From Caldithrix abyssi (GTDB lineage Bacteria > Calditrichota > Calditrichia > Calditrichales > Calditrichaceae), in NCBI GenBank assembly GCA_011369465.1, contig DRQG01000149.1, forward strand, positions 1 to 43,930: a stretch of DNA of 43,930 bases. The letters are read 5' to 3'. A program made the position numbers and the translations under genes. Below are positions 5,777-18,203 of this stretch, one piece after another (within the stretch, counting starts at the first letter, position 1; every line of letters begins with the position of its first letter). The notes beneath the pieces are model-generated. The model was not told where the DNA came from. It saw only the letters and a program-made list of their open reading frames with translations, and searched no databases.

Positions 5777-6922
5777 TTACTTATTTTTTACAGGAAGGGT
5801 AAAAACAAACCGATTACCGGTTTTGTTTTCGGTATCTACCCACAGTTTGCCGCCATGGGCTTCGACAGCCAATTTACAAAAAGTTAACCCCAGGCCACGC
5901 CCTATACGATACCCTTCATTTTTTATTTCAATCTGACGGAACTTATCAAACATATTTTCCCCATATTTAATGGGAATCTGAATACCAAAATCGTGTATGG
6001 CAAAATAGACCTGTCCGTCCTTAATACCGGTTTCAATCTCTACATGTCCGTCAGTTGGAACATTGGCTACGCCAAAACTGATCAGATTATCAAAAACCCG
6101 TTCCATCACGGAAGTATCCAATTTCACTAACGGTAAATTGGGGTCTAACTTCATTTCTACGGTCTTTGAGCTGTTTTCCGGATAATCCCATATTTTTTTC
6201 TGGCATTTTTCTACCAGTTCATTAAAACTGCCCAATTCCAGACTCAGCTCCATACTGCCATCTTCTATTTTGGAAATATCGATCAGGTTCATTACCATAC
6301 GCAAAAGATTTTGGGAGCTGCGTTCAATGCGATCCACATATTTTTTCAGGACCGTTGATGTGGATTCATCCATACCCATGGACATCATTTGCAGGTTGCC
6401 CTGTATTACGAACAAGGGATTCTTCATATCGTGTACGATTAAATGGCTCAAATCTTCTTTGAACTGATCCATCCGTACCAACTGTTTATTTTTCTCTTCC
6501 AATTCCTTGTTTTTTCGTACCAGTTCGTCATGATAAAACTTTAACCGAAGCAGTGATTTGACCCTTGCCAACAGTTCCACATTCTCGAACGGTTTGGAAA
6601 TAAAATCATCCGCGCCTACTTCGAGGCTGTGTATTTTATCTTTCAGCTCTTTCAAAGCGGTAATCATAATAATGGGAATAAACTGGGTGGAAGGATTTTT
6701 TTTGATGCGTTCGCAAACCTGAAAGCCATCCATTTTTGGCAACATGATGTCCAGTAAAATCATATCCGGCTTTTCTTGTTCCACTTTTTGCAGCGCTTCC
6801 ACGCCATCCATTGCGGTAATAAGGTCATAATCCTGCGGTTTGAGAAAATAGGCCACCAGATCCAGGTTTTCCTTATTATCATCAACAATTAGAATTTTTG
6901 CTTTACGCGGCTCCGAAAGCAT
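5777..6922 (-). CDS. Response regulator-histidine kinase hybrid (REC-HisKA-HATPase)
   Basis: 381 residues, no membrane segment. An N-terminal receiver domain (1-125) has the acidic pair DD14-15, phospho-acceptor D58 in LLDIMLPK and K110. A coiled coil (about 133-155) joins it to HisKA with H164 in VHDMKNPL. The ATPase domain (about 230-378) keeps DFGIQIP and GRGLGL, but the N box reads DNLISFG, with F283 where the Mg-binding Asn of 'NLLSNA' normally stands. Autokinase activity is therefore doubtful. Receiver-first kinases often work in phosphorelays or as phospho-dependent scaffolds. It lies 113 nt downstream of the FliA-type sigma gene and may share its transcript, so regulation of that sigma factor or its inhibitor is a possible role. 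Confidence 0.88.
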   Translation of the reverse strand: MLSEPRKAKILIVDDNKENLDLVAYFLKPQDYDLITAMDGVEALQKVEQEKPDMILLDIMLPKMDGFQVCERIKKNPSTQFIPIIMITALKELKDKIHSLEVGADDFISKPFENVELLARVKSLLRLKFYHDELVRKNKELEEKNKQLVRMDQFKEDLSHLIVHDMKNPLFVIQGNLQMMSMGMDESTSTVLKKYVDRIERSSQNLLRMVMNLIDISKIEDGSMELSLELGSFNELVEKCQKKIWDYPENSSKTVEMKLDPNLPLVKLDTSVMERVFDNLISFGVANVPTDGHVEIETGIKDGQVYFAIHDFGIQIPIKYGENMFDKFRQIEIKNEGYRIGRGLGLTFCKLAVEAHGGKLWVDTENKTGNRFVFTLPVKNK

Positions 6923-7035: not shown

Positions 7036-7800
7036 TTACGCATACGTAAGTTTGTTGATTTCCTTTTTCAGCTTGATCATTGTTTCGGAATGAATTTGAG
7101 ATATGCGTGATTCGGAAACATTAAGAATTTTTCCGATTTCCTTGAAGGTAAGTTTTTCATAATAATACAACGTAATTGCCAGACGGGTTTTTTCCGGCAG
7201 TTTTTTAATGGCTTTGAGTAATACACGCTTCATTTCTTCATCTTCTATTTTGTTATCGGGTTTAATATAATCTTTATCTTCAACCACATCGTACAAATTT
7301 TGTTTATTGGTATCATCCAGTGGTTTGTCTAACGAAAAAATATTGATGGAGTTAGCGTCTTTTTGCCAATTATGCAAATCATTCACTTCAATTCCCAATC
7401 CGTTGGCCATTTCGTCCTCCGTATAGTTACCGGCAAATTTTTGTTCCAATTCCACTGTTTTTTCGCGGATATTATTCAATTTTGCACGTAACGAGCGCGG
7501 TATCCAGTCCAGTTTCCTCAATTCGTCTATAATAGAGCCCTTTATCCGGGGTATGGCGTATGTTTCGAATTTAATACCATAGGCGGGATCGAAACGGTCT
7601 ATGGCTTCTGAAAGGCCAAGAATACCGATCTGGTACAGGTCATTCTCTTCCAGAGCCTGCGGATAATTCTTTATCATTTTGCGGACAACATATTTTACAA
7701 GACCCAGGTATCTCACTACCAATTCCTGACGGCAGCGTATATCGTTATTGGTTTTATATTCCAACCAGGTAGGATCATAAGCTGTAGAAGTTGATTGCAT
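7036..7800 (-). CDS. fliA: FliA/WhiG-family RNA polymerase sigma factor (sigma-28)
   Basis: A 254-residue group 3 sigma factor. Region 2 is clear (YLGLVKYVVRKM, then DLYQIGILGLSEAIDRFD and FETYAIPRIKGSIIDELR), followed by WIPRSLR, which is characteristic of FliA/WhiG. Region 4 is at the end (LPEKTRLAITLYYYEKLTFK with the helix-turn-helix SESRISQIHSETM). Such factors direct flagellar, chemotaxis or other motility genes, or developmental genes in non-motile bacteria. No flagellar structural gene is in the window, so the regulon is unknown. The start is well placed: GAGGG four nt before ATG. A near-consensus sigma-54 promoter lies at 7850-7865. Downstream are a REC-kinase and a FlgM-like small ORF. 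Confidence 0.92.
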   Translation of the reverse strand: MQSTSTAYDPTWLEYKTNNDIRCRQELVVRYLGLVKYVVRKMIKNYPQALEENDLYQIGILGLSEAIDRFDPAYGIKFETYAIPRIKGSIIDELRKLDWIPRSLRAKLNNIREKTVELEQKFAGNYTEDEMANGLGIEVNDLHNWQKDANSINIFSLDKPLDDTNKQNLYDVVEDKDYIKPDNKIEDEEMKRVLLKAIKKLPEKTRLAITLYYYEKLTFKEIGKILNVSESRISQIHSETMIKLKKEINKLTYA

Positions 7801-7849
7801 AGTTCCCTCTCTTCCTTAAGGTTTTGGTGGTGATTTTTGTTCCGATATT

Positions 7850-7865
7850 TGCATTTTTCGTGCCA
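7850..7865 (-). promoter_or_regulatory. Sigma-54 (-24/-12) promoter of fliA
   Basis: On the minus strand the sequence is TGGCACGAAAAATGCA. Compared with the sigma-54 consensus TGGCACG-N4-TTGCA it differs at one base, with GG and GC at the exact required spacing. Transcription would start near 7839, giving a leader of about 39 nt that contains the ribosome site. A sigma-54 activator is encoded at 16851-18203, but nothing here shows it acts on this promoter. Confidence 0.75.
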
Positions 7866-8098
7866 GTATAAAACAGTATAGAGATGAAACTTTTCCTATC
7901 CTATTGTAATTTCATAAGTTAAATACATAAACAATTGCGACCCTATGGAAAATAACTGTTCACACAGTGTAAATTTTGTCCTCATTTTCACCACTTTTTT
8001 GTTTAAGATGCAGACAGTTTTATGATATTTTCCCTAAACATTTTGTTATTGATGACGATTAGGATTGGATATGATCCTCTCATATTTTATAAATACCC

Positions 8099-8172: not shown

Positions 8173-9480
8173 ATGAAACATTTTTATTTTATTGTCTTAT
8201 CGATCATTCTTTTTTCAGGCAGCGGCTTGTTTGGTCAGGATATATCTACTTTTTTTGATGAAGAAAGGAACTCTGTTAACGGTGGTCTCGGTATTACCTG
8301 GATTGACGGCAATCCTTATACAACGTTCACATTAGCTCCGGAGTTTTCTTTCGGGAAATTCGGCATCGGTTTATTCATCCAGTTGTTATATGACAATTTC
8401 AACGGTTTTAAATTTCGTACAGCCGGATGGGAAGGCAAAGGAGGCTACTGGAGAATGATTAACTATATCCGCTATGGATTTAAAGGCGACTCATTTTACA
8501 CACGTATTGGTACTTTGCAGGGAACCTGGCTGGGAAACGGGTTTATAATGGGTTACTATAGCAACGGGGTGGATTACGACAATCGCTATATCGGTTTAAT
8601 ATTGGATGCCGATCTTGGTTGGATGGGTTTTGAAACGATGACTAATCGTCTCAGGGTTCTGGATATCGTCGGTGCAAGGCTGTATTTCCGGCCTTTGCGA
8701 GGATCGGGAATTCCTATTCTTAGAAGCCTTGAAATCGGCGGCACCTATGTTACCGACGTAGATCCGGACGATAACAATGCAACGGATGACCGTCTGCAGG
8801 AATGGGGAACGGATTTGACCTTGCCCATTGTTCAGAGAGATTATTTTAATCTTGGTCTTTATGCCGATTACGCCCAAATCGTAAATTACGGACATGGTAC
8901 GGCTGTAGGTATTCGTGCTGGTATTCCAAATTTTATCGGCGTACTGGGGCTTATGGCCAAATTGGAAAAGCGATGGACAGGAGATCAGTTTATCGCAAAT
9001 TATTTTAACGCCTTATACGAATTGGAACGCCGTCCGCTTAGTTCGACCCATTATTATCCCGATATGGTTCCTGCAGAAACGTGGACCAAACAGGATTTTC
9101 TTAAAACCGTACGTGGTAATTCAGGTATTTACGGCGAGCTGGCCGGGCACATATTGGGCCAAATACGTTTACTGGGTAGTTTCCAATATACCGACGGTAT
9201 CAAATACAGCGGCATTCTTCACCTCGAAGCGCTTACTAAAGATATTATCCCATCCTTTCGGTTTCGTTATACTTACGACAAGGTGGGCATAGAATCTTTT
9301 TCCGATGTATTCACGCTTGACTACCGCTCTGTGGCTGTGGGTGAAATTATGTATCGTACCTATCAATTCGTTTATGTTACCCTGCGCTACCGCTGGAATT
9401 TTGTATTTGACCCGGTTAGTGGAGAGTATAAACCGCAGGAACGATTTGAGCCAAGCGTAAGTTTTATAATGGACTTTTAA
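8173..9480 (+). CDS. Outer membrane beta-barrel protein
   Basis: 435 residues. A Sec signal peptide (about 1-21, ending LFGQ) is followed by alternating aromatic/polar strands throughout (for example RYGFKGDSFYTRIGTLQG and FVYVTLRYRWNFVF). It ends in phenylalanine (SFIMDF), the usual C-terminal signal for BAM-dependent insertion. No enzymatic motif is visible, so transport or a structural role in the outer membrane cannot be told apart. ATG at 8173 has AGGAG eight nt upstream. It stands alone between the divergent fliA promoter region and the terminator hairpin at 9500. Confidence 0.8.
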   Translation: MKHFYFIVLSIILFSGSGLFGQDISTFFDEERNSVNGGLGITWIDGNPYTTFTLAPEFSFGKFGIGLFIQLLYDNFNGFKFRTAGWEGKGGYWRMINYIRYGFKGDSFYTRIGTLQGTWLGNGFIMGYYSNGVDYDNRYIGLILDADLGWMGFETMTNRLRVLDIVGARLYFRPLRGSGIPILRSLEIGGTYVTDVDPDDNNATDDRLQEWGTDLTLPIVQRDYFNLGLYADYAQIVNYGHGTAVGIRAGIPNFIGVLGLMAKLEKRWTGDQFIANYFNALYELERRPLSSTHYYPDMVPAETWTKQDFLKTVRGNSGIYGELAGHILGQIRLLGSFQYTDGIKYSGILHLEALTKDIIPSFRFRYTYDKVGIESFSDVFTLDYRSVAVGEIMYRTYQFVYVTLRYRWNFVFDPVSGEYKPQERFEPSVSFIMDF

Positions 9481-16850: not shown

Positions 16851-18203
16851 TCAACTGAGTTTGATATTTAGTTCGTCGATTTTCCTGTACAGAGAAGACA
16901 GGCTTATATCCAGAAGCTGTGCCGCTTCTTCTTTATTGTTACCGGTATGTTTTAATATTCTGGCGATGTGATTTCTTTCGAACTGGGCGATGGCATCTTT
17001 AAGCCGGTCGGGAATTTCCGGCGTAAATTCCTCGCTGATCATATTGGGCGGCAGGTCGTTTTTGGTGATGTAATCCCCTTCGCACAGGATCAACGCCCGT
17101 TCAATAACGTTTTCCAGCTCCCGGATGCCGCCTTTCCAGTTATAATTCATCAGGATGCGCATCGTTTCATTATCGGTGCTGCGCACACTGGTATTCAATA
17201 CGCGGTTGTACTTCTCAATGAAATGCTGAACCAGCAGCGGGATGTCTTCTCTGCGCTCGTTTAAAGAAGGCAGTTTAATCTCGACTACGTTCAGGCGATA
17301 ATACAAATCATCCCGAAAACGTCCGGCTTCCACTTCTTCCATCAGGTTACGGTTGGTAGCTGCGATGATACGTACATCGATTTTTACGGGCGCTGTGCCG
17401 CCCACAGGCAGAATTTCGCCCTCTTCGATGGCGCGCAGCAGTTTAACTTGCAGATGCAGAGGAATATCACCGATTTCATCCAAAAAGAGCGTTCCTCCGT
17501 TGGCCATCTTAAAATGCCCGTCCTTATCACGCACGGCGCCGGTAAACGATCCTTTTTTATGGCCGAAAAACTCGCTTTCCATCAGCGTATCCACAATGGC
17601 ACCGCAGTTGATAGGCACAAAGGGTTTGGAGGCCCGTTCGCTGTTGTAATGAATGGCCCGGGCCACCAGTTCCTTTCCTGTTCCGCTTTTACCGGTGATT
17701 AATACGTTTCCTTTGGTTTTGGCCACTTTGCGGATCAATTTGAATACTTGCTGCATCTGCTCGCTTTGCCCTACAATTTTACTGAAATCGTATTTTTCCT
17801 GTACGGCAGTGCGCAGAGCCTGGTTTTCCAGCAGCAGTTCTTTATGCTTCACGATTCGCTTTATTTTGATCAACACATCGTCAAAATCAAAGGGTTTTAA
17901 TATATAATCGTAGGCGCCGGCGCGCAGCGCTTCTATGGCCGATTCCAGACTGCCATGAGCCGTGATGATTATAATCAGCGTTTGCGGACACTGTTTTTGC
18001 AGGTGTTTAACCAGCGCAAGCCCGTCCATCTCCGGCATCTTCAAATCGGTAATCACGATGTCAAAGTCGCGCTCGTTCAACAAATTCACGGCTTCTTTTC
18101 CGTTGGCAGCCACTTCAGTGGCATATCCTTCTTCCTGCAATATCATTTGCAGGGAATCGCGGATGGTGCGTTCGTCATCCACAACCATTATATTGGCTTT
18201 CAT
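16851..18203 (-). CDS. Sigma-54-dependent response regulator (NtrC/AtoC type)
   Basis: 450 residues in three domains. Receiver (1-120) with D53 as phospho-acceptor. AAA+ (about 140-380) with Walker A GKSGTGKE (171-178), the sigma-54 contact loop GSFTGA (218-223; Ser replaces the usual Ala) and Walker B GGTLFLDEIGD (236-246). Fis-type helix-turn-helix at the C-terminus (EEAAQLLDISLSSLYRKI). It activates sigma-54 promoters when phosphorylated. The gene overlaps the sensor kinase by 4 nt (ATGA), so the kinase at 18200-19936 is its partner. It precedes maeB by 16 nt. The only good sigma-54 promoter I see in the window is upstream of fliA. Confidence 0.95.
   Translation of the reverse strand: MKANIMVVDDERTIRDSLQMILQEEGYATEVAANGKEAVNLLNERDFDIVITDLKMPEMDGLALVKHLQKQCPQTLIIIITAHGSLESAIEALRAGAYDYILKPFDFDDVLIKIKRIVKHKELLLENQALRTAVQEKYDFSKIVGQSEQMQQVFKLIRKVAKTKGNVLITGKSGTGKELVARAIHYNSERASKPFVPINCGAIVDTLMESEFFGHKKGSFTGAVRDKDGHFKMANGGTLFLDEIGDIPLHLQVKLLRAIEEGEILPVGGTAPVKIDVRIIAATNRNLMEEVEAGRFRDDLYYRLNVVEIKLPSLNERREDIPLLVQHFIEKYNRVLNTSVRSTDNETMRILMNYNWKGGIRELENVIERALILCEGDYITKNDLPPNMISEEFTPEIPDRLKDAIAQFERNHIARILKHTGNNKEEAAQLLDISLSSLYRKIDELNIKLS

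Follow-up and report, generated by a model that had tools for sequence, protein, structure and literature searches.

A FliA-type sigma factor gene behind a conserved sigma-54 promoter in Calditrichota, with a probable role in surface attachment

FliA is treated as a marker of flagellar gene control, and a sigma-28-type sigma factor gene that lies away from flagellar genes, behind what looks like a sigma-54 promoter, raises the question of what such a factor transcribes. We met this arrangement in a 43,930-nucleotide stretch of DNA (the window) from a Calditrichota MAG of the Caldithrix abyssi family (genome G000; 4.31 Mb, 98.5% complete). A sequence-only reading of the window had proposed that sigma-54 drives the gene and that its output could be something other than flagella. 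If so, a 'fliA' annotation of the window gene would mislead. We compared the gene with orthologues drawn from 60 genomes, grouped into families f1 to f6; among these genomes we take G005, of the same family as G000, to be C. abyssi itself, an assignment with which the position estimated for the published pilus cluster (Cabys_2584-2567) agrees.

The sigma factor gene and its promoter

The gene (7036 to 7800, minus strand) encodes a true sigma factor of the FliA/WhiG type: Pfam finds sigma-70 regions 2, 3 and 4 in its 254 residues, and it scores above the cut-offs of both TIGR02479 (FliA/WhiG; 251.2 bits against 189.6) and the FliA subfamily model PRK06986 (212.6 against 201). The closest solved structures are those of WhiG and FliA (entry 7lq4 is labelled WhiG; 6pfj and 6pfv we take to be WhiG). 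Directly downstream on the same strand, at 5777 to 6922, is the gene of a protein with receiver, HisKA and HATPase domains (Pfam). Because this partner adjoins the sigma factor gene or stays near it in every neighbourhood examined, across families f1 to f6, the two genes form the conserved unit, and they are probably co-transcribed. Divergently, at 8173 to 9480 on the plus strand, the window encodes a 435-residue protein with a signal-like N-terminus and no Pfam match, whose counterparts (48-58% identity) sit beside the sigma factor gene in most f1 and f4 relatives. TonB receptor and cytochrome c maturation genes, which come after the receiver-kinase gene in relatives, were considered as part of a regulon and discarded; they are absent from that place in the window and show no obvious link.

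The putative promoter, TGGCACGAAAAATGCA, lies on the minus strand at 7850 to 7865, 49 nt 5' of the ATG (7800). It had been described as one base off the sigma-54 consensus with exact GG/GC spacing, and this is what we find on comparing it with TGGCACGN4TTGCA. Taken alone, the match is weak evidence that does not go beyond chance: 84 of 100 shuffled windows contained a sequence with no more than one mismatch, chance should give about two such near-matches in each window, and genome-wide the pattern shows no enrichment (32 matches against 29 in the reversed control). What refutes a chance sequence, which we now regard as highly improbable, is the comparison of orthologues. TGGCAY-N6-TGC stands 5' of all 19 orthologues in a clade made up of families f1, f2 and f4, at a near-constant distance of about 55-85 nt ahead of the homologous start, against an expectation of 0.02 from shuffling; because all 19 keep it, the match at 7850 to 7865 goes beyond chance. 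The GG/GC pair, which the sequence-only reading had singled out as the feature to look for upstream of orthologues, is thus present throughout the clade, and the proposal of a sigma-54 promoter driving a sigma-28-type gene is supported. The promoter of this orphan gene is well supported as far as sequence can tell. None of the 10 more distant orthologues examined (54-59% identity; families f3, f5 and f6) has the element, and its placement on this gene appears to be specific to the one clade.

An AT-rich stretch (7866 to 7950, minus strand) lies upstream of the promoter. In the corresponding 80 nt of the orthologues, IHF-like elements have a mean of 1.42 best mismatches against 1.83 ± 0.14 in shuffles, a weak signal that is suggestive only, and a search across the orthologues' upstream regions found no shared activator site. 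Pairwise identity of these regions was rejected as a measure of conservation, since gapped alignment inflates the value.

As for the machinery, the genome holds a single rpoN (one RpoN DNA-binding domain), whose absence would have spoken against the proposal, and about 30 full sigma-54 activator domains. One of these belongs to the NtrC-type protein at 16851 to 18203 (minus strand) that had been pointed out in the earlier reading; it is indeed encoded in the window, but we rejected it as the specific activator of the sigma factor gene and did not assign it to the promoter at 7850 to 7865, as it is one of about 30 and has no conserved linkage to that gene. In G006 and G008 it still lies beside the genes for Pta/malic enzyme and butyrate kinase; the fetched sigma-gene neighbourhoods of C. 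abyssi, G007, G016 and G001 do not contain it. We did not rely on genome-wide counts of sigma-54 matches alone and used their position relative to genes instead: matches in G000 prefer the 20-80 nt ahead of gene starts, where 10 of 30 lie although the background is 1.25%, and the sites so placed include those of dnaK, clpB and the flagellar gene flgF.

Two FliA types, and genomes without flagella

That no flagellar genes are nearby is true of the window but not of the genome, which has a full flagellar cluster on another contig. A second FliA-family protein (C52:14404-15075) lies within its flagellar operon, together with fliM, fliP, fliQ, fliR, flhB, flhA, flhF, flhG, flgF, flgG and others (assigned by order and N-termini, and flhA by profile), and the sigma factor of the window is located outside this cluster. 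In a tree the family separates, with supports of 99-100%, into an A-type (29 sequences), to which the window's protein belongs, and a B-type (12 sequences). The A-type retains the canonical FETYAIPRIKGSIIDELRKLDWIPRSLR, to which FKNYAYRRIHGEVVDALRREGVIGRDKYE is the B-type equivalent; more broadly, the canonical DNA-binding and promoter-contacting segments (FETYAIPRIKG..IIDELR..DWIPRSLR) are kept in the A-type and altered in the B-type, region 2.4 included.

The two types are distributed unevenly. A-type genes are orphans throughout f1, f2 and f4, and genomes of these families that have a flagellar operon carry a B-type gene in it. The A-type gene of f3 sits in the flhA-flhF-flhG operon (L097), and by coordinates it is close to flhA in G021, G033, G037 and G036 (beside flhA in the last of these). 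Family f5 has both arrangements; the swap is patchy, because G027, of that family, too has a B-type gene in the flhA cluster and an orphan A-type gene. Most likely, the orphan A-type is the FliA that the lineage had originally and that was displaced from its flagellar operon, although the direction of the swap hangs on the rooting of the tree and on long branches.

Flagellin promoters also come in two forms. Those of f3 and f5 are of the canonical FliA type, TAAA-N17/18-CGATAA (for example TAAAGAATGTCAACAAAGCTCCGATAATAATGG), and those of f1 and f2 read TTAA-N17-CGACCWA. Exact copies of the second form elsewhere in nine genomes fall almost always inside genes, and intergenic copies occur almost only at flagellin loci. 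Within the Caldithrix order, flagellin loci such as L130, L132, L133 and L137 show this unusual FliA-type promoter, and the flagellar operon there has a divergent FliA.

Several relatives appear to have no flagella. We found no flhA match in G001 (96% complete), G007 (94%), G022 (92%) or the less complete G026 and G010, and flagellin was also not found in G001, G007 and G022; all five nevertheless keep the A-type gene and its sigma-54 site. The occurrence of the gene is hence not confined to genomes with flagella, from which it appears to be uncoupled in this clade. This persistence, together with a flagellar operon that has a divergent FliA of its own, supports the earlier suggestion of an output other than flagella.

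Candidate targets of the orphan sigma factor

Genome-wide searches with the FliA-type pattern TAAA-N15-GCCGATAA, allowing one mismatch, found modestly more matches than in the reversed control for some genomes and no surplus for the rest, and such counts alone were set aside as evidence of a regulon. Conservation of position was more informative. Intergenic TAAAG-N16/17-CGATAA sites recurred in three genomes 5' of one orthologous gene, that of a secreted giant surface protein of about 1,200-1,560 residues with LVIVD propeller repeats and tandem Ig/cadherin-like domains (L337:2543-7192, L338:4736-8569), present as a single copy in 25 of the 27 genomes searched. In C. abyssi the gene lies near 3,986,543 of the contig. 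TAAAG-N16/17-CGA precedes this gene in 20 of 24 testable genomes, where 0.33 were expected; these include the three discovery genomes, and the independent test stands at 17 of 21. The site is there in the flagella-less G007 and G026, both without a B-type match, and was not found before the gene in G001 and G022. Two f3 genomes (G021 and G023) carry the variant TAAA-N17-CGATAA, and two incomplete MAGs (G002 and G004) have the site with no A-type sigma factor gene detected.

The second candidate is a type IV pilus operon. A perfect FliA-type site, TAAAGAATAAAAAATATAATGCGATAAT, lies in G000 about 55 nt 5' of the gene for an MshEN-ATPase-receiver protein that heads an operon with a prepilin peptidase, a PilC-type protein, pilins, a PilM-like protein, a secretin and a PilT-type ATPase. 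At the corresponding pilB start, C. abyssi has TTAATGATTTAAACGCAATAAACGATAAT, matching 11 of 12 positions (p 0.005), and G006 has TTAATGTTTGGTCATTGTACTACGATTAT, a weak match at 10 of 12 (p 0.057). All three testable genomes thus have the site, of which two (C. abyssi and G006) are independent, the G000 site having been found by searching; the flagella-less G001 falls outside this count, as its contig ends inside pilB. The published analysis of the C. abyssi genome describes clustered type IV pilus genes along with a complete set of genes for flagella (PMC5317091), and the word "sigma" is absent from its main text. The first gene of the operon (L298:4083-6468, contig C85 of G000) encodes an extension-type ATPase fused to a C-terminal receiver domain, a fusion that is similar in C. 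abyssi (L381), G006 (L357) and G001 (L364). Beside the operon, a glutamine synthetase-like gene (L298:18136-19458, also on C85) is preceded, at a distance of about 163 nt, by the FliA-type site TAAAGTCCCAAAGCGATGTTTTCGATAA.

Other FliA-type sites were seen in single genomes and are leads only. They precede genes for a receiver-HD-GYP protein (G001), a SpoIIE-type phosphatase (G007) and a receiver-DUF4388 protein (G022), as well as DUF350 and FecR genes in C. abyssi. The C. abyssi pair lies at about 618 kb (L201/L299) around a probable lytic transglycosylase, with about 1.2 kb between the two sites; after each come GTA and then a gene, in one case for a DUF350 protein and in the other for a FecR-domain protein.

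A proposed cascade, its rivals and known systems

We think it probable that a cascade from sigma-54 to sigma-28 has here been re-aimed from flagellin to surface attachment, a reading that joins the conserved promoter, the orphan FliA and the putative attachment regulon. One of the roughly 30 NtrC-type proteins would activate RNA polymerase-sigma-54 at 7850 to 7865, which would then transcribe the orphan FliA gene, probably along with that of the receiver-kinase partner. The orphan FliA would in turn transcribe genes preceded by TAAAG-N16/17-CGATAAT, namely those of the type IV pilus operon and of the giant LVIVD-propeller/Ig-repeat protein and, probably, some that act in signalling, while the flagellar operon of the clade would use the second, divergent FliA with its own type of flagellin promoter. 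From the conserved sites we infer the surface-attachment regulon of the A-type factor, and with it the assignment of sigma factors to promoters and the physiological role; in relatives without flagella the A-type factor probably controls attachment machinery, for instance type IV pili and the giant adhesin. As to origin, we give an even chance to a swap in which a divergent FliA, its -10-reading region rewritten and a matching new flagellin promoter at hand, took over the flagella and freed the original FliA, which was put under sigma-54 and would now run flagella-independent attachment through type IV pili and the giant Ig-repeat surface protein.

An ordinary flagellar hierarchy, in which the sigma-54 promoter supplies FliA for late flagellar genes and the gene merely lies apart from the cluster, is unlikely. 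It has a precedent in Vibrio, where FlrA and sigma-54 transcribe fliA as a class II gene and rod genes are under sigma-54 too (PMC6504787), and it agrees with the presence of a sigma-54 site before the flgF rod operon (TGGCACCACATTTGCA in G000, TGGCATTGCATTTGCA in C. abyssi) and of the A-type gene in the flhA operon of more distant families. Unlike in Vibrio, however, the sigma factor gene lies outside the flagellar cluster, a second FliA lies inside it, and the A-type gene and its promoter survive in genomes without flhA and flagellin. Flagellin promoters of another type in the clade also speak against an ordinary hierarchy. Under the attachment reading, sigma-54 upstream of flgF as well may mean that swimming and attachment are coordinated or timed together. 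Slightly less likely again is a real sigma-54 promoter combined with TAAAG-N-CGATAA sites whose main reader is the B-type FliA or another sigma-70-family factor, which would leave the A-type factor without an assigned regulon. Flagellated genomes do have both FliA types, further sigma-70-family factors exist, and the pairing of factors with sites is ours. Against this, the site before the surface-protein gene is retained in the flagella-less G007 and G026, neither of which gave a B-type match, region 2.4 of the B-type is altered, and the site is of the same type as the flagellin promoters in families whose flhA-linked FliA is A-type.

The attachment reading has partial parallels. WhiG of Streptomyces, a FliA-family sigma factor like the window's, to which it is the closest in solved structure, also works in an organism without flagella, but it controls sporulation, and we know of no sigma-54 promoter on whiG. 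FliA of Bdellovibrio bacteriovorus is a global attack-phase regulator with a broad surface-related regulon, and its consensus, TTAAG-N16-CCGATA, closely resembles the sites that we see before the pilus operon (PMC3627812); there, however, FliA still controls flagella, whereas here a second FliA is present and flagellin promoters are of a type of their own. The Rrp2-RpoN-RpoS cascade of Borrelia burgdorferi likewise places an alternative sigma factor gene under sigma-54 by way of an NtrC-type activator (PMC2940757), although its activator is known and the downstream factor is RpoS, not FliA. A link from sigma-54 to attachment would fit the proposal that sigma-54 is a controller of the bacterial exterior (PMC3162934). 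In the literature searched we found no case in which the flagellar operon has a second FliA, with a flagellin promoter type of its own, and the original FliA is kept under sigma-54 whether or not flagella are present; given partial coverage, this is weak evidence of novelty. If the reading is correct, Calditrichota, a poorly known phylum, would hold a natural rewiring experiment, with two FliA paralogues of separable promoters in lineages with and without flagella, one kept with the flagella and the other re-aimed under sigma-54 at pili and surface adhesion. Cultivated C. abyssi offers a way to test this.

Finally, two of the gene-proximal sigma-54 sites in G000 match the consensus ahead of chaperone genes, one about 53 nt 5' of dnaK (C97:37688-37703; L060) and the other 34 nt 5' of clpB (C117:17216-17231; L069), which suggests that heat-shock genes may be under sigma-54 in this phylum.
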